60,796 bases of DNA. Source: Ignavibacteriota bacterium. Lineage in GTDB: Bacteria > Bacteroidota > Ignavibacteria > Tepidaquicellales > Tepidaquicellaceae. A program made the translations under genes and the position numbers. Positions 21,898-59,500 of this stretch are shown piece by piece. Under the pieces are notes generated by a model. The model worked only from the letters and a program-made list of their open reading frames with translations. It was not told the DNA's origin and did no database searches. The stretch is taken from contig JAPLFJ010000002.1 in assembly GCA_026390735.1 (NCBI GenBank), forward strand, positions 1 through 60,796, read 5' to 3'. Position 1 is the first letter of the stretch. Every line of letters starts with the position of its first letter.

Positions 21898-24849
21898 ATG
21901 AGGGATAATACAATTTTAAGGATTATTTCCCTTTTTCTATTTACATTCTTGCTTATCTTACCCATAAGCGTTTTTGCACAGTCAACTGGCTCAATAGGTG
22001 GTCGTGTTACTGATGTCAAAAACGGTTCTCCTCTCGGTGGAGCAGTCATCAAAATTGAGGGCTCTAACATGGGTGCAATAGCAGATGATAACGGAGAATA
22101 TGTTATCTTAAACGTTGATGTAGGTTCCTATACATTATTAGGTTCGTTCATGGGTTATGAGACGAAAAAAGTAACAGGTGTTAGAGTATCCGTTGATGGC
22201 AGGTCAAAGGCAAACTTTGAACTTGGCACAGGCAGTGAAATTACTACTGATGTAGTAGTTATCGAAGCCGAAAGAAAAGGTATTGATGTAGAACAAAGCG
22301 GAAGAATTATAGAAACAGAAAATATAAAGAATTCCGGTACACGTGGAATCACAAACATCGTCTCAAAAACAGCAGGTGTTGTTCAGGACGAAAGAGGTGG
22401 TTCTATTAATATTCGCGGCGGTCGTAGCAACGAAAGTGTTATTATCGTTGACGGTGTCGAAACAACCAACCCGCTTGACGGGTCTTCAAGAGCATTCGTT
22501 CCAAATAACCTCTTGCAGGAAATTACTGTATTAACAGGTGGTTTCGGTGCAGAGTACGGTAACGTACTTTCCGGCGTTATTAACGTTTCAACAAAAAGCG
22601 GTACGTCTAAATACTCTGGTTCTGTTGAAGCCATTACTGATGAATTCGCAGGCAGATGGATAGATACAAAATCACAGGGTTATAATCTGTACAACGTTAA
22701 CCTTGGTGGTCCGCTTATTCCAACAAAGGAACTTGCACAGGTTCTTAATGTTTTCTTAAGTTATGAAAAAACTTTCCAGAGAATTACAATCGGTTCCTGG
22801 GTTCTTGACCGTTTACCGACTATAGTTCCAAACGGTACACTCAAAGATAACGAACAGGGAACACAGTCCTTTAACGGTAGGTTTAATGTTAACCTTTCTG
22901 AATTAAAGGGTGGCAAAATTCCTGTCAATTTAAGGTTCGGTGCAACTTACAATCTGACTAATGGCAGAGTACTTTATGGCTCAAACATCTATAATAGTAT
23001 AGATGGCAACCCATTGAGTTCTACCTATGGTCAGGTATTAAGCAACTCAAACAGAAACCCGGTTACTACTGGTATCGACCAGCAGTACTTTGGCAGAATT
23101 TCTGTTACCCCATCCCCCAAATTCTTCTTTGAATTGCAGGGAAGTTATTTTAAATCATATTCCGAACAGGCAGACCCGATTTTCGGCGATCAGATAACAC
23201 ATTACGGTGATACAATATATAATCCGTTATTAACCGTTTATGGTTTAAGAAATGGCCAGACAATCGGAACTGATCCTAATACTTCTTACTTATACCAGAG
23301 ACTTGGTAACGTTATAGACGTTTATCAGAAACTCGATGTAAGTTATTTCAGCTCTAAGCTTGATGCTACATGGGCTTTACTTTCAAAGAATTATGGCGAC
23401 CACGAAGTTAAATTTGGTGGTGAATACAAATACAATACGTTAAGGCGTTTAACTATCAACCCTGCAGCAACTGCAGACCAGACAGTTCAGAACGTTCTTG
23501 ACAGATACTATGGTACAAACATGGCCAGATTGAAAACATATGGTTATACCATATACGATCAGTTTAATGGCGTTACTACTCTTGTAGCAGACGAAAATAA
23601 CAAGGAAGTAGGAACAGCAGCAAAACATCCTATCACTGGTGGTTTCTACGTCAGAGATAAAGTTAGTTTTGCAGACTTTAACTTTAACGGCGGTGTCAGA
23701 GTCGACTTCTTTGACGTTAACGATAAAGTGTTCAAAAGTCTTGCAACAGATATAGTAGGTCCTGACGGACTTGTAGCAACTGCTGATGACTTCACAGACA
23801 GTAAAATGGATTTCTTTGTTAGTCCAAGACTTGGATTCTCATTCCCTATTACTGACAAAATTATCTTCGTGGCTCAGTACGGTAAGATGGTTCAGTTACC
23901 ACAGTTGAACCTTCTTTATGTCAATCAGGCTACAATGCAGAGATTCTTATCTACAGCATTACAGGATGTAATCGAAAACTCATCTTTGAAACCAACCAAG
24001 TTAACACAGTATGAAATTGGTTTCAAACAGCAGGTTGGTGATTATATCAATCTTGGTGTAACTGCATTCTATAAAGAAGCAGTTGATCAAATCGGTGCAG
24101 GTAGAATAAAAGCAACAACTGACGGTAAAGTACCTGTCGGTTTTGTAACTTATTTAAACAATGACTTCTCAATATCAAGAGGTTTTGATTTTTATTTGTC
24201 AATGAGAAGATGGAATAGAATGTCTGTTGACCTTGCGTACACATTATCGTATGCAACTGGAACAGGTTCAGACCCATTCTCAAAGACATCTTTGGCTAAT
24301 GATGCAACTCAGGAGTTACCACAGTTTGTGTATCCTTTGGATTATGACCAGAGACATACAGGAAGTGTTAACTTTGACTACAGATTTGGCGGAGATGAAG
24401 ACGTTCCAAAAGGATTCATGGGAAAAGTATTAAGAAATGCTGGAATGAACTTTTTGTTTAGTTTCAACAGTGGCAGACCTTATACTGCAAGAACAGTCTC
24501 CAATACAGCAACAGGTACAGCAGGTGATTATGTTCTTTCTGCAAAGAATGAATTATACCGTGACTGGAACTTCAGGTTAGACTTTAGGGTTGATAAAACC
24601 GTTCCTGTCTGGAAGACAAACTGGAATTTCTACGTTTATGTCATCAATTTACTGAATACTGAAATCATAAATAATACTTTTGATGGTACAGGTAAACCAA
24701 ATGATAATGGATTCCTGAATACACCTACAGGTGCTTCCAGGTATGAAAACGATCCGGTGTTCAGAAAATTATGGCCGGAAAGAGTGAATTTCTTGTCTAA
24801 CTATGGTCCACCGAGACAAGTAAGATTTGGTGTTAACATTAGTTTCTAG
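21898..24849 (+). CDS. TonB-dependent receptor with carboxypeptidase-regulatory-like N-domain
   Basis: This 983-residue outer-membrane receptor takes up substrates with energy from TonB. After a signal peptide come a CarboxypepD_reg-like domain (residues ~30-115: GGRVTDVKNGSPLGGAVIKI), a plug domain (INIRGGRSNESVIIVDGVE; FGAEYGNVLSGVINVSTKSG) and a long barrel ending VRFGVNISF with a terminal Phe. No classical TonB box is obvious to me. It starts a three-gene run with the 1143-residue secreted protein and the PorV-like barrel (gaps of about 40-60 bases), so the three probably act together. Substrate is unknown. Confidence 0.92.
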   Translation: MRDNTILRIISLFLFTFLLILPISVFAQSTGSIGGRVTDVKNGSPLGGAVIKIEGSNMGAIADDNGEYVILNVDVGSYTLLGSFMGYETKKVTGVRVSVDGRSKANFELGTGSEITTDVVVIEAERKGIDVEQSGRIIETENIKNSGTRGITNIVSKTAGVVQDERGGSINIRGGRSNESVIIVDGVETTNPLDGSSRAFVPNNLLQEITVLTGGFGAEYGNVLSGVINVSTKSGTSKYSGSVEAITDEFAGRWIDTKSQGYNLYNVNLGGPLIPTKELAQVLNVFLSYEKTFQRITIGSWVLDRLPTIVPNGTLKDNEQGTQSFNGRFNVNLSELKGGKIPVNLRFGATYNLTNGRVLYGSNIYNSIDGNPLSSTYGQVLSNSNRNPVTTGIDQQYFGRISVTPSPKFFFELQGSYFKSYSEQADPIFGDQITHYGDTIYNPLLTVYGLRNGQTIGTDPNTSYLYQRLGNVIDVYQKLDVSYFSSKLDATWALLSKNYGDHEVKFGGEYKYNTLRRLTINPAATADQTVQNVLDRYYGTNMARLKTYGYTIYDQFNGVTTLVADENNKEVGTAAKHPITGGFYVRDKVSFADFNFNGGVRVDFFDVNDKVFKSLATDIVGPDGLVATADDFTDSKMDFFVSPRLGFSFPITDKIIFVAQYGKMVQLPQLNLLYVNQATMQRFLSTALQDVIENSSLKPTKLTQYEIGFKQQVGDYINLGVTAFYKEAVDQIGAGRIKATTDGKVPVGFVTYLNNDFSISRGFDFYLSMRRWNRMSVDLAYTLSYATGTGSDPFSKTSLANDATQELPQFVYPLDYDQRHTGSVNFDYRFGGDEDVPKGFMGKVLRNAGMNFLFSFNSGRPYTARTVSNTATGTAGDYVLSAKNELYRDWNFRLDFRVDKTVPVWKTNWNFYVYVINLLNTEIINNTFDGTGKPNDNGFLNTPTGASRYENDPVFRKLWPERVNFLSNYGPPRQVRFGVNISF

Positions 24850-54655: not shown

Positions 54656-55948
54656 TTAAATCCCTACTCTCTTAAATATAAAATCTATACTCTTCTGCGA
54701 TTTCCTGTAATCAAACACCTCATCCAGTTCTTTACTACTTAAATATTTCATCACTTCAGAAGAACCCTCAACCAGTTTCCTGAACTCCACCTTCGTTTCC
54801 CAGCACTTCATCGCAATCGTCTGCACAATCTTATAAGCATCTTCGCGTCTCATCTTTTTATCAATCAATTTTAAAAGCAAAGTCTGCGAGAATATAAGCC
54901 CCTTCGTCAGTTCCAGATTCTTCTTAATGTTCTTTTCGTAAATTGTCACGTTCTCTACCAGTGTAGTAAACTTATGAAGCATATAATCCAGCAGTATAGT
55001 CGAGTCAGGCATTATAATCCTTTCAACTGAGGAATGCGATATATCCCTCTCGTGCCACAGCGGAATATTCTCCATCGCAGCGAGTGAATTTCCACGAATC
55101 ACCCTTGCCAGACCTGAAAGCTGCTCCGACGTAATCGGATTCTTCTTATGCGGCATCGCAGACGAACCCTTCTGTCCTTTCGTAAAACTCTCTTCAAGTT
55201 CAAGCACTTCAGTTTTTTGCAGATGCCTGATTTCTGTTGCGTATTTATCAATGCACGACGCTATTATTGCCAGTGTTGACAGATAATGTGCATGTCTGTC
55301 TCTTTGTAAAATCTGTGTTGATATCTTTGTTGACTTCAGTCCCAGTTTCCTGCATACATATTCTTCCACTTTCGGGGAAATATGCTCGTACGTTCCCACG
55401 GCTCCCGAAATCTGTCCGACAGATATCGTCTCTATCGCATCTTTCATTCTTTTAATATTACGGTTGTTCTCATCAAACCATAATGCAAACTTCAGTCCCA
55501 GAGTAATCGGCTCTGCGTGAATACCGTGAGTCCTGCCAATCATCGTTAACTTCTTATACTTTCTTGCTTTCTTTTTCAATGCATCGCGAAGCTTCAGTAA
55601 ATCCTTTAAAATTATTTCACCCGCCTGTTTCATCTGAACTGAAAGGGCAGTATCCAGTACATCCGAACTCGTCATACCCATATGAATAAACCTTGAATCA
55701 ATACCAACGTACGATGCCACGTTAGTCAGGAAAGCAATCACATCATGCTTCACAGTCTCTTCAATCTTCAGAACCTTCTTCGTATCGAAGTTCGCCTTCT
55801 TCTTAATCACTGCAAGCGATTTTGCAGGAATCAGTCCAAGTTTGCACTGAGCTTCACAGGCAAGAATCTCCACATCAAGCCACACCCTGAACTTATTCTC
55901 ATCCGACCATATCTTTGCTGCTTCTTCCCTTGAATATCTTGGTATCAT
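54656..55948 (-). CDS. purB: Adenylosuccinate lyase
   Basis: The enzyme acts twice in purine synthesis, releasing fumarate from SAICAR and from adenylosuccinate. The 430-residue protein has MIPRYSREEAAKIW at the start, the TSSDVLDTALS and GRTHGIHAEPITLG segments, and the fumarase/aspartase-superfamily signature GSSAMPHKKNP. I chose ATG 55948 because family proteins begin MIPRYS; an ATG eleven codons upstream would add only an AT-rich, non-conserved stretch. Confidence 0.96.
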   Translation of the reverse strand: MIPRYSREEAAKIWSDENKFRVWLDVEILACEAQCKLGLIPAKSLAVIKKKANFDTKKVLKIEETVKHDVIAFLTNVASYVGIDSRFIHMGMTSSDVLDTALSVQMKQAGEIILKDLLKLRDALKKKARKYKKLTMIGRTHGIHAEPITLGLKFALWFDENNRNIKRMKDAIETISVGQISGAVGTYEHISPKVEEYVCRKLGLKSTKISTQILQRDRHAHYLSTLAIIASCIDKYATEIRHLQKTEVLELEESFTKGQKGSSAMPHKKNPITSEQLSGLARVIRGNSLAAMENIPLWHERDISHSSVERIIMPDSTILLDYMLHKFTTLVENVTIYEKNIKKNLELTKGLIFSQTLLLKLIDKKMRREDAYKIVQTIAMKCWETKVEFRKLVEGSSEVMKYLSSKELDEVFDYRKSQKSIDFIFKRVGI

Positions 55949-56076
55949 ATAATTGTATTTAAGTTTTATTGTAGAAAACAAATATATTAATTACGCATAA
56001 CTTTTAAAAGCATATTATATCCACTGATAATTAAATTCTAAAAAATATTTGTTAACACAGAATTGTTTCTATCTCT

Positions 56077-56142
56077 AACCCTGAAAAATAATCAGTGCAA
56101 ATCAACTCTTCCATTTCTTATGTTGTGCCAATCTTTTTATCT
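56077..56142. repeat. Dispersed intergenic repeat, copy C
   Basis: AACCCTGAAAAATAATCAGT is nearly the same as the start of copy A, and ATGTTGTGCCAATCTTTT nearly the same as the end of copy B. The three copies lie within 2.4 kb and flank lexA and purB. Confidence 0.6.
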
Positions 56143-56180
56143 TTACTCTGTGTACTCCATGAACCTGCTAAACCAATCAG

Positions 56181-56220
56181 TTTCAAAATGAGAAAATCTG
56201 TCTCAAAATGAGAAAATTAA
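56181..56220 (+). promoter_or_regulatory. Tandem activator-binding-like sites
   Basis: TTTCAAAATGAGAAAATCTG (56181-56200) and TCTCAAAATGAGAAAATTAA (56201-56220) are direct repeats. The core of the second, TCTCAAAATGAGA, is a perfect inverted repeat (TCTCA-AAA-TGAGA); the first differs by one base. They lie about 45-85 bases upstream of a -24/-12 promoter, which is where enhancer-binding proteins for sigma-54 act. Confidence 0.6.
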
Positions 56221-56262
56221 AATCCTCACCTTGCGATTCCATTCAAAATTCGCACAATATCT

Positions 56263-56279
56263 TTGGCACACAAATTGAT
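56263..56279 (+). promoter_or_regulatory. Sigma-54-type (-24/-12) promoter
   Basis: TTGGCAC is followed by five bases and TTGAT. The GG (56265-56266) and the G of the -12 element (56277) are ten bases apart, exactly the sigma-54 spacing, and only the -12 C is changed to A. The start of transcription would be near 56290. No other -24/-12 match was noticed elsewhere in the window, but no scan was run. Confidence 0.62.
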
Positions 56280-56289
56280 ATTTAATTAT

Positions 56290-56426
56290 CGATTGGTTTT
56301 AAATAAGAGGAAAATTCATCCATAATTAAAATCTTATTTTAATTATGTTTCTTCACGACAGAATCCTTTGTTAAGTAAGAGGAAGTCATCCAGAGCCTTT
56401 GAGTTCATCTCAAGGGCTTTTTTTAT
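56290..56426 (+). ncRNA. Predicted small regulatory RNA with two repeated modules
   Basis: The transcript predicted from the -24/-12 promoter to the T-run is about 135 nt. It has two modules, each a purine-rich segment followed by a hairpin. Module 1 is TAAGAGGAA-AATTCATCC (56304-56321), then a perfect 12-bp stem CATAATTAAAAT/ATTTTAATTATG with a CTT loop (56321-56347). Module 2 is TAAGAGGAA-GTCATCC (56376-56391), then a 10-bp stem AGCCTTTGAG/CTCAAGGGCT with a TTCAT loop and seven T. The repeated AGAGGAA and TCATCC segments would stay single-stranded, as target-binding seeds do. No convincing ORF fits; a nine-codon frame from 56345 starts inside the hairpin. Confidence 0.6.
56394..56426 (+). 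terminator. Terminator of the predicted small RNA
   Basis: AGCCTTTGAG (56394-56403) pairs with CTCAAGGGCT (56409-56418) with one G-T pair, and T continues to 56424. It is a strong intrinsic terminator that follows no protein gene on this strand, which is the main reason for proposing an RNA gene upstream. Confidence 0.88.
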
Positions 56427-56506
56427 TGTTTCAGAATTGCTTTATATATACATCGCGGACCTCATTCTAATTTTCCCAACTGAATTTAACGTATTAAATA
56501 CATATT

Positions 56507-56534
56507 TTGTGTTTCAGGGAACACATTTTAATTT
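56507..56534 (+). promoter_or_regulatory. Candidate promoter TTGTGT-16-TAATTT
   Basis: TTGTGT (56507-56512) and TAATTT (56529-56534) lie 43 bases upstream of the ATG at 56577. The TAATTT box repeats that of two other candidate promoters in the window. Confidence 0.35.
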
Positions 56535-56576
56535 ACCGTAGTATATATATAAAATTAACCTTTTAATTAATACAAT

Positions 56577-59500
56577 ATGAAAAAATTAGCATTCGTACTG
56601 GTCTTGTTTGTAACTTTGTTTGCATTCAGTAAAACAAATTCACAGACTGCGCCGCAGGTTTATGATTATGACTCAAAGTGGAAAGCAATCGATTCGCTTT
56701 ACAATTACGGACTTCCTGAATCTGGTATGAAGATTCTTGATGAAGTATATGCTCAGGCGAAAAGTGAAAACAATACTCCTAACTTTGTAAGGGCTATATT
56801 GTACAAGTTTAAACTTACTCAGTACAACGAAGAAGACTCTTTCTTCAAAAGACTTGAAGAAATGAAAGCCGAAGAAAGCGTTGCAGCTTTTCCGATTAAA
56901 CAATTCCTGAACTCATTAATAGGTGATATGTTCTGGACTTACTACCAGAACAACAGGTATAACTTACTCGGACGTACGAATGTAGTCAACTATAAACTCG
57001 ATGACATTAAAACCTGGGATGCTAAAAAAATAATTGAACAGGCAATATTTTATTATAAGAACTCATTATTAGAACCCGAAAGACTTCAGCAGGTGAACAT
57101 AGAAGTTTATAACGATATGCTGAACAATTATGTGTACGATAAGTACGTACCAACCGGCAGAAAATACCGCCCTACTCTTTATGATTTTCTCGCATTCAAA
57201 GCAATCGGATTCTTCTCCAATAAAGAAGCAGGCGTTACAAGACCTGCAGAACAGTTTTTATTGAACGACCCGATTTATCTCAGCGATGCAAAAGAATTCG
57301 CTGCACTCGATATTACCACGAGCGATGTTTTCTCATTCGATTTTTATGCAACAAATATTTTAAAAGATTTAATTAAGTTTCACCTTGCAGACGGCAACGT
57401 AGATGCATTTGTCGATGCCGATTTAATGCGTATTAATTTCGTGTACAGTAATTCCGGCAATGCCGAAAAGGAAAGTCTTTACCTGAAGGCACTCGAAAAC
57501 CTTCATAATAAGTACATAAATTATCCTGTTTCAACTTCCGTTGCTTACGATATCGCAGAAGTCTACCAGACAAGAGGTGCAAAGTATGTGCCGGGAATAG
57601 CCGATAACTTCAGGGAGGATTATAAACTCGCTTATCACATCTGCAGGGAAGCAATTGACAGGTTCCCTGAATCTGACGGTGCACAGAACTGCCGTGCAGT
57701 TATTACGAGTCTGGAAACAAAGTCTTTAGCAGTTTCTCTGGAAGCGTACAACGTTCCCGATAAGCCGTTCCGTACACTTGCAACTTACAGAAACGTAAAT
57801 AAACTTTATTATAAAATAGTCGAAACTTCTTACGGCGAAATAAAGAGTATAGAAGAAGAGTATTACAAGATTAATGATTACAGTAAATACCAGACAGGAA
57901 TCATCAATAAGTTCAGGAGCAGAGATGCAGTCCAGAACTTTGCAGTAAACCTTCCGGAAGACGGAGACTTTCAGCCTCATAAGGCAGAAGTTAAAATTCC
58001 TGCACTGCCGTCGGGAGTATATGTTCTGCTCGTAGGTTCAGAGGAAACTTTCTCTTACAAGGAAAACGCAGTATCTTTCTGTCTGCTGAACATAAACAAC
58101 ATAAGTTACATCAACAAAACAAACAATAAGCACGATATAGAGTTCTTCGTCTTAAACCGTGACACAGGTAATCCGCTCGAAGGTGCAGATGCAACTATGT
58201 ACGTAGAGAAGTACGATTACAACGTATCAAGGTATGCGTACGACAAAGTATCAGATTTCACAACAAACAAAGACGGCTACTTCGCTATCAACAATATTAA
58301 GCAGTCAAGAAGATTCTATCTTGATATAAATTATCAGGGTCAGACACTTTCGACCAAGGGTTACAATTTCGGATATGGGTACAACTATCTTCAGGATGCT
58401 TTCTATCAGGATGTATACAGTGAAAAGGACCCAAGACCTTACACACAAACTTATTTTTTCATAGACCGTTCAATCTACAGGCCTGGTCAGACACTTTTCT
58501 TTAAAGGCTTAGTAATTGAATCAAAAGGGGAAGACAGAAACATAAAGGTTAATGAAAGTGTAAAAGTTGAACTCTATGATGTTAACTATCAGAAAGTTTC
58601 CGAACAGAGTTTTATGACGAATGAATTCGGTACAATTAACGGGAAGTTTACATTACCGACATCAGGACTTAATGGTCAGATGCACATACAGACTTCAGTC
58701 AATAATGGGAATGCATATTTTTCAGTGGAAGATTATAAGAGGCCGAAGTTTGAAGTAACTTTTAATCCTATAAAAGGGGCTTATAAACTTGGGGAAATGA
58801 TTCCTGTGAAAGGAGTGGCGAAATCTTATGCTGGTGCTAATCTGGATAATGTGGCGGTGAAGTACAGGGTAGTAAGAAAGACTTTTTATCCGAGATGGTA
58901 TTATGACTGGTATTCATACTATGGGAGTGTGACTAATTCAAGTGATGTGGAAATTCTTAATGGTACGACTACTACTAACGGTAGCGGTGAGTTTGAAGTG
59001 AATTTTAAGGCAATCCCTGACCAGACAGTTTCGAAGGATTTTAAGCCATACTTTAATTATAAGGTTATTGCTGATGTAACAGATGTTAACGGTGAAACAC
59101 ATTCACAGGAAACGATGGTATCAGTTGGGTACAATTCATTACTGCTGAACGTAGCCATGAATCCTAACGTAGATAAGAACGGTGAGACAAAGTTTAAACT
59201 TTCAACGACTAACCTTAACGGTGAGAAAGAACCTACAGAAGGGAACATTACAATATATAAACTAAAGAGTCCTGAAAAGGTGTTCCGCAGCAGGCTGTGG
59301 TCAAAGCCAGATAAGTTTACGATGACAAAGGAAGAGTATTACAGGGATTTTCCGTATGATGAATACAGCGATGAAGGGAACTATACAAAATGGGATAAGG
59401 AGTTGAAGGCTTATGATGGAAGGTTTAATACTGGGGAGGATTCATTGGTTGACCTGAGTGTGATGGGGGGATGGAATCAGGGGAAGTATTTGCTGGAGAT

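Follow-up and report, generated by a model that had tools for sequence, protein, structure and literature searches.

In an Ignavibacteriota bacterium, a purB-type gene on the minus strand (54656-55951; NCBIfam purB) is separated from an alpha-2-macroglobulin-type gene (from 56577 onward; Pfam A2M and MG2) by a gap that raises the question of whether it holds a small RNA transcribed under sigma-54 control, as had been proposed in a first-pass annotation, and of how such an RNA would act. The gap lies in a window of 60,796 nt, i.e. the whole stretch of DNA analysed, from genome G000, which is one of five genomes of the same genus (G000-G004). As judged from the sequence, the gap is very probably a sigma-54-controlled small-RNA transcription unit. 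The full reading, in which a small RNA controlled by sigma-54 and an activator would act in trans, with base-pairing as the most likely mode, is given a probability of about 0.78.

Intergenic region and predicted transcript

The elements of the gap follow one another in the order palindrome pair, 50 bp spacer, -24/-12 promoter, about 135 bases and intrinsic terminator (Table 1). The two tandem activator-like sites of the first-pass annotation were recovered as 13-bp palindromes of the TCTCA-N3-TGAGA type, and nowhere else in the window is the tandem pair matched with 3 or fewer mismatches (shuffle mean 0.02). The -24/-12 promoter was likewise confirmed, with exact GG-N10-G spacing. The motif by itself is common, with 12 matches in the window at up to one mismatch versus 9.3 expected, and alone it was dropped as evidence. 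The promoter in the gap is the sole exact match, and its significance stems from its fixed position behind the enhancer pair, an arrangement that recurs genome-wide. One intrinsic terminator was found in 55900-56700 versus 0.2 expected, and no ORF of at least 50 residues was listed within the RNA, the sole overlap being a TTG frame (56368-56541) that reads through the terminator. The earlier description of a strong terminator with no protein gene ahead of it stands, and there is no conserved ORF.

Table 1. Predicted features of the intergenic region and related loci. Positions are those of the window unless a genome or locus is given.
Feature	Position	Strand	Remark
Enhancer site 1, TTTCAAAATGAGA, palindromic putative activator site	56181-56193	+	13/13 bases identical in G004 ortholog
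Enhancer site 2, TCTCAAAATGAGA, 20 bp after site 1	56201-56213	+	11/13 identical in G004 ortholog
Sigma-54 -24/-12 promoter, TGGCACACAAATTGAT, GG-N10-G exact	56264-56279	+	14/16 identical in G004 ortholog
Predicted small RNA, ~135 nt	about 56289-56424	+	Ends inferred: start 12 nt past the -12 G, end at the T-run
Module copy 1, TAAGAGGAA	56304-56312	+	GAGGAAA (56307-56313) predicted paired with UUUCUUC (56348-56354)
Hairpin 1 core, CAUAAUUAAAAU-CUU-AUUUUAAUUAUG	56321-56347	+	G004 version shorter, of other sequence, still folds a stem
Hairpin 2, UCCUUU-GUUAAGUA-AGAGGA, overlapping module copy 2	56364-56383	+	8-nt loop identical in G004 ortholog
Module copy 2, TAAGAGGAAGTCATCC	56376-56391	+	Second TAAGAGGAA-N(0-3)-TCATCC copy
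Intrinsic terminator, AGAGCCTTTGAG-TTCAT-CTCAAGGGCTTT and T-run	56392-56424 (hairpin 56392-56420)	+	29/33 identical in G004 ortholog
Second sigma-54 RNA candidate	G000:C68:59334-59524 (L048:3335-3525)	+	Promoter at 59334; core just before terminator
Third non-coding RNA candidate, ~200 nt	G000:C68 near 172864 (L118:2365 to ~2140); G004 L168:2108	- (L118, L168)	
Membrane peptide family	L115:2064-2445; L165:66-299; L117:1251-1358; L174; L182; L198; L200	- (L115, L165)	

Copies of TAAGAGGAA-N(0-3)-TCATCC occur at 56304-56321 and 56376-56391 and nowhere else in the window (shuffle mean 0.01). Both copies reported earlier are therefore present, but in the ortholog from genome G004 the first retains TAAGAGGAA without TCATCC, and TCATCC is found there in one copy only. 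Unusual stability was predicted for the fold of 56290-56430 (z -3.6; the other stable-fold value was z -4.6). The conserved segments predicted to stay unpaired comprise the larger part of the 5' leader, the loop of hairpin 2 (8 nt) and a short linker ahead of the terminator. In the G004 version, part of the 5' leader may pair in the predicted fold.

A DNA search of 59 genomes revealed one near-full ortholog, in G004 (77% over 244/271 bases), which sits in the same gene neighbourhood with the alpha-2-macroglobulin-type gene downstream in the same direction; the other matches were many places with the enhancer or the enhancer and promoter part only. When the window is compared with G004, 23/23 positions are identical in 56290-56312 and 43/45 in 56347-56391, against 28/50 in the enhancer-promoter spacer, 112/152 in the stretch past the terminator and 62-64% at the third codon positions of the flanking genes. 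Selection therefore appears to act on the RNA. Hairpin 1 differs in length and sequence between the two versions, and with two aligned sequences there is little covariation.

The first-pass annotation had called for conservation in related genomes and a covariance model. The window RNA and its G004 ortholog both fold a stem at hairpin 1, but conservation is narrow, the RNA being found in one of four congeners. No ortholog was found in G001, G002 and G003 by DNA and model searches, which gave weak model matches only, and under strict filters the model found no match at a convincing score in the 54 genomes outside the genus. Model matches at E <=1 occurred in 22/59 genomes; at 11/18 loci among the matches listed, the match was, by eye, the terminator behind a lysine-rich frame, and the weak matches were dropped as homologs.

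On contig 69 of the own genome, the model also matched two gene 3' ends (E 7.6e-5 and 2.9e-4). A hairpin, TTCCTTTGTTAAGTTAAAGGAA, lies at the 3' ends of two genes of this contig (G000:C69:25752-25773, L119:2753-2774, minus strand; and 22934-22955, L179:2435-2456, minus strand) and resembles hairpin 2 of the window RNA with 3 mismatches and that of the G004 ortholog with 2. As a widespread repeat it was dropped, since there were eight matches at <=3 mismatches in 6/29 genomes (backward control, 1), namely two with 0 mismatches, the G004 ortholog with 2, and the window RNA and four others with 3.

With Rfam at gathering score, the whole window gave two tRNAs only, and 56150-56500 at E <=10 gave seven sub-threshold matches with no Qrr, GlmY/GlmZ, CrcZ/CrcY, NrsZ or Pxr among them.

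Enhancer-promoter module, candidate activator and regulon

Both rpoN and NtrC-type regulators, which the first-pass annotation had suggested to search for, are present in the genome. The rpoN product includes all three sigma-54 Pfam domains and scored 401.5 against NCBIfam rpoN_sigma (cut-off 277.35). Activator genes number about a dozen: PF00158 was matched 17 times, in 12 cases with an E value no higher than 2.1e-50.

The enhancer pair, at up to 2 mismatches and with 20-bp spacing only, was found in 10 of 148 genomes: 23 sites in G000, 19 in G004, 9 in G009, 5 in G002, 2 each in G011, G019 and G028, and 1 each in G003, G119 and G136. A site in G001 has 19-bp spacing and was therefore counted as zero. 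The backward control pattern gave one site among the 148 genomes, in G067, and none in G000, G004 and G009. With 3 mismatches allowed, 26 pairs were found in the own genome (control, 0).

A set of 63 pairs from six genomes (spacing 19 or 20 bp, <=2 mismatches) was taken from loci chosen by an enhancer match or by a BLAST match to the enhancer region of the window, which cover all 26 own-genome places and part of the G004 sites. A sigma-54 promoter lies 40-115 bp from the enhancer in 61 of these pairs, as compared with 177/5000 random positions in the same loci; the two pairs without a promoter are in G002 and G011, one each. The enhancer-promoter gaps of the 61 pairs fall into classes of 50-53 (35 pairs), 60-64 (14), 71-73 (4), 82-85 (2), 92-96 (3) and 106-107 bp (3), which are spaced by ~10.5 bp, i.e. 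one helical turn, the significance of this phasing being overstated because orthologous sites were counted separately. Phasing of this kind would be required by an activator that always occupies the same face of the DNA.

A candidate NtrC-type activator of 451 residues (G000:C60:700-2055) with a receiver, an AAA domain and a Fis-type HTH is encoded next to a receiver/HisKA/HATPase histidine kinase gene, and an enhancer pair with a promoter starts 442 bp past its stop codon. The protein scored below the NCBIfam cut-offs of LuxO, GlrR, NtrC, AtoC and PEP_resp_reg. Orthologs of >=63% identity were found in 12/59 genomes (for G008, a partial match of 65% over 289 residues was accepted), and the best match outside these genomes is 51% (G052). 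The 12 genomes include all 8 of the 59 that have enhancer pairs with 20-bp spacing (Fisher p 2e-7, the genomes not being independent); G119 and G136 lie outside the 59.

At 7 of the 11 ortholog loci examined, which exclude G008, an enhancer pair and a promoter lie no more than 450 bp behind the activator gene, and at five of these seven a small membrane peptide follows the promoter. Of the remaining two, the contig ends in the own genome, and the short frame found first in G001 is of a different type. There is a weak enhancer pair behind the activator gene in G026 and, as judged by eye, remnants only in G019 and G028. In G023 the contig ends within the locus, and there is no enhancer pair behind the 51% relative in G052. 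From the genetic association, it is likely that the contig 60 activator acts at the palindromes.

The array is intact in G004, where the activator gene is followed by enhancer, peptide, receiver, enhancer, peptide, receiver and a TPR-like protein. In the own genome, the end of contig 60 and the start of contig 50 carry inverted ends, CACTACTGTCCCGTT, flanked by ATATAATTT (L112:1-163, minus strand; L117:1-180, plus strand). An insertion element seems to lie here just behind the sigma-54 promoter 3' of the activator gene, the locus in G004 being uninterrupted.

Taken together, the complete rpoN, the recurring phased module, the co-located activator and the conserved RNA strongly support, at the sequence level, the proposal of a small RNA controlled by sigma-54 and an activator.

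As judged by eye, the regulon would consist mainly of exported proteins, short membrane peptides and receivers, together with two further candidate non-coding RNAs, and most targets begin with a signal peptide or a lipoprotein signal. These products fit the general link of sigma-54 to the cell exterior drawn in PMC3162934. In a Pfam scan of 30 proteins, of which 26 are regulon products, some cut by the locus end, a type IX sorting tail (Por_Secre_tail) was found in 6/26 regulon products, one just at the cut-off, and no PEP-CTERM tail was matched among the 30. Among the regulon products, a receiver and a TPR protein were also recognised, besides matches to HAD phosphatase (G000 and G002), endonuclease I (G009), PAP2, DUF3089, trypsin-like, Phenol_MetA_deg and carotenoid-synthesis models; 7 of the 26 had no match at E <=0.001. 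Two calcineurin-type phosphoesterases were among the regulon products scanned, and similar N-termini occur in more.

The apparently exported phosphatases and endonuclease I sit in the regulon of G000 (L047, L113, L050) and G009 (L186, L187). The nuclease and phosphatases hint at a physiological role in scavenging extracellular phosphate or DNA. Single-span membrane peptides of 32-42 residues (as ...ISFMVGIIMVVSLLVTGFIVK) are found under the same enhancer, in tandem or before receiver genes (Table 1); two of them gave no match in NCBIfam.

Proposed mode of action and alternative readings

From the computed module, its recurrence and phasing, the activator association, the conservation and the fold, activator binding, transcription and a base-pairing mode may be inferred as follows. 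Sigma-54 RNA polymerase would wait at the promoter until the phosphorylated NtrC-type activator encoded on contig 60 binds the palindromes (56181-56213) and opens it. As the activator and the sigma-54 switch would be shared, production of the ~135-nt RNA would coincide with that of the regulon, with its exported and surface proteins, receivers and short membrane peptides. The RNA would fold into two hairpins and the terminator, and most probably act in trans via the unpaired conserved 5' leader CGAUUGGUUUUAAAUAA, the hairpin-2 loop GUUAAGUA and the linker AUCC, base-pairing with messages and adjusting them during the same response.

At least two further RNAs, likewise lacking a conserved ORF, appear to be controlled by the same enhancer-promoter switch (Table 1). 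The second RNA ends in AGAGU-n-CCCCAAAUUACCCUUUACUUAAUU (n is absent in some species) and a terminator. Its 24-nt core CCCCAAATTACCCTTTACTTAATT is invariant in 5/5 genomes of the genus, where each copy sits behind an enhancer pair and promoter, and at <=3 mismatches it was found in none of the other 54 of the 59 genomes. An exact scan for the core in the GTDB collection (84,980 species), from which records near the genome of the window may be left out, gave four records, of which three bear the title Ignavibacteria(e) and the fourth that of a Bacteroidetes bacterium. In both species the third RNA has a strong structure, in which at least one paired change was seen by eye, and it has no Rfam match at gathering score. 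TCATCC was rejected as a motif common to the regulon RNAs, being predicted to be paired in a stem of the third RNA.

Before an ABC-F gene, G001 and G003 carry an intergenic element that is weak in G002 (L176:2080-2270, plus strand; L177:1930-2003, minus strand; L223) and is lacking at this place in G000 and G004. In G001 and G003, 18 consecutive pairs are possible between the element and the invariant core of the second RNA (0/300 shuffles as long); the G002 version is a weak match to the core (19/300 shuffles by energy). The model of the window RNA picked up the element of G001 and G003, but only weakly (E 0.012 and 0.9).

These data bear on a further possibility, considered unlikely, namely that the window RNA serves the second RNA as a partner or decoy, much as GlmY/GlmZ or sponge RNAs do. 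The segment GUUAAGUAAG, comprising the loop and stem edge of hairpin 2, can form 10 consecutive pairs, G-U counted, with the invariant core; the run holds in both species with both RNAs and was reached by 7/300 and 5/300 shuffles. In addition, G001 and G003, in which no window RNA was found, have the element with the 18-nt core complement. However, the core-only pairing energy is ordinary in the own genome (57/300 shuffles as good) and somewhat better in G004 (13/300), the G002 site is weak, and full-length pairing of the two RNAs was dropped, 103/300 and 151/300 shuffles being as good. Because shuffles reach the core pairing energy that often, RNA-RNA antagonism is kept only as a bold and unlikely reading. 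By this reading, one two-component/sigma-54 system would control a type IX export regulon and mutually base-pairing RNAs, and the window RNA would be a fast-evolving decoy of the second RNA, replaced in sister species by another intergenic RNA, with a logic like that of GlmY/GlmZ and of independent origin.

RsmY and CrcZ titrate RNA-binding proteins, and the window RNA might titrate a CsrA-like or other protein in this manner via its two purine modules. Both AGAGGAA copies are kept in both species, and the TTCCTTTGTTAAGTTAAAGGAA hairpin in the two gene 3' ends of contig 69 could be a shared binding site. CsrA sites are characterised by the loop motif ANGGA, whereas the sequence here is GAGGA, and both copies are predicted to be mostly paired, with the conserved partners UUUCUUC and UCCUUU, so that the GGA motifs fall in stems and not in hairpin loops; furthermore, there are only two copies. 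Titration is thus quite unlikely, and the earlier suggestion that the AGAGGAA segments serve as seeds or protein-titrating repeats was not upheld. The 5' leader and the hairpin-2 loop would be better pairing candidates than the purine segments.

Alternatively, the RNA would be the terminated 5' leader of the alpha-2-macroglobulin-type gene, with readthrough as its point. The same gene lies downstream in the same direction in G004, and the stretch from the terminator to the gene is also fairly conserved between the window and G004 (112/152 identical, 74%). Against this, a strong intrinsic terminator intervenes before 56577; many other regulon targets start 14-130 bp behind their promoter with no intervening terminator like that of the window; and the homologs in G001, G002 and G003 (53-62% identical) have no enhancer site with <2 mismatches in the stretches examined, some of which are short. 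A leader is therefore distinctly improbable.

That the transcript encodes a short peptide, as might be thought from the membrane peptides among the regulon targets and from a 9-codon ATG frame beginning in hairpin 1, is highly improbable, since the 14-nt and 1-nt length differences between the window and G004 shift the frame (MFLHDRILC* versus a 31-codon frame) and therefore disfavour a conserved reading frame, and there is neither a membrane-peptide pattern nor codon-frame conservation.

By the preferred reading of a trans-acting sigma-54-controlled RNA, uncultured Ignavibacteria would have a small RNA together with its candidate switch, made up of a kinase, an activator, an enhancer code and a promoter, and its regulon of exported proteins would be readable. 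With the strict enhancer rule, targets can be listed in these genomes by sequence alone, and the interest lies mainly in the regulon and the RNA set around the window RNA.

Comparison with known systems

Qrr RNAs are short hairpin RNAs with a terminator, and CrcZ/CrcY (CbrB), NrsZ (NtrC) and Pxr (Myxococcus) are further small RNAs linked to RpoN or NtrC-type control. CrcZ titrates a protein via many A-rich repeats, whereas the window RNA has two purine copies, which are predicted to be paired. To our knowledge, enhancer-driven small RNAs are known mainly from Proteobacteria. In the accessible parts of the open-licence literature on Ignavibacteria with sigma-54 or small RNA, no such RNA is described, and nothing was found in the open-licence literature joining type IX secretion, RpoN and an enhancer binding protein.

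Two 13-bp enhancer sites of the 5-3-5 type at a sigma-54 promoter are reported for LuxO (TTGCAWWWTGCAA) and SypG (TTCTCANNNTGMDWN) in PMC10162802. The layout of the gap is like that of the LuxO-activated Qrr of Vibrio in having a sigma-54 promoter and two such sites, and the half-site TCTCA resembles that of SypG, which is a likeness only. Unlike Qrr, the window RNA has no Rfam match and belongs to another phylum, and the candidate activator reached 382.7 bits in NCBIfam versus a LuxO cut-off of 800.

In the GlmY/GlmZ system of Enterobacteriaceae, a two-component system with a sigma-54 activator leads to an envelope-linked small RNA, according to PMC6075780. The present system differs from it (QseF/GlrR) in that the RNA has no Rfam match, the candidate activator scored 317.1 versus a GlrR cut-off of 763, and the partner RNA is putative. 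The resemblance to Qrr or GlmY/GlmZ noted at first holds for the layout but not for the RNA family or the activator. The likeness to Qrr, GlmY and CrcZ would be that a sigma-54 activator fires a small RNA, membership in any of these groups not being supported.

The PrsK/PrsR/PrsT system (Haft 2006, PMC1569441) includes a histidine kinase, a sigma-54 response regulator and a TPR protein, and the PEP-CTERM regulon has a recurring enhancer and -24/-12 motif before many genes for sorted export proteins. Similarly, the kinase and activator genes occur together here, and the receiver genes behind the activator gene precede a TPR gene. The candidate activator differs from PrsR in its score of 396.2 versus a PEP_resp_reg cut-off of 502.6, and the regulon differs from that of PEP-CTERM in having type IX tails where Pfam finds any sorting tail and in including candidate non-coding RNAs. 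The design mirrors PrsK/PrsR of PEP-CTERM bacteria and would make it possible to test whether type IX export is under RNA control.
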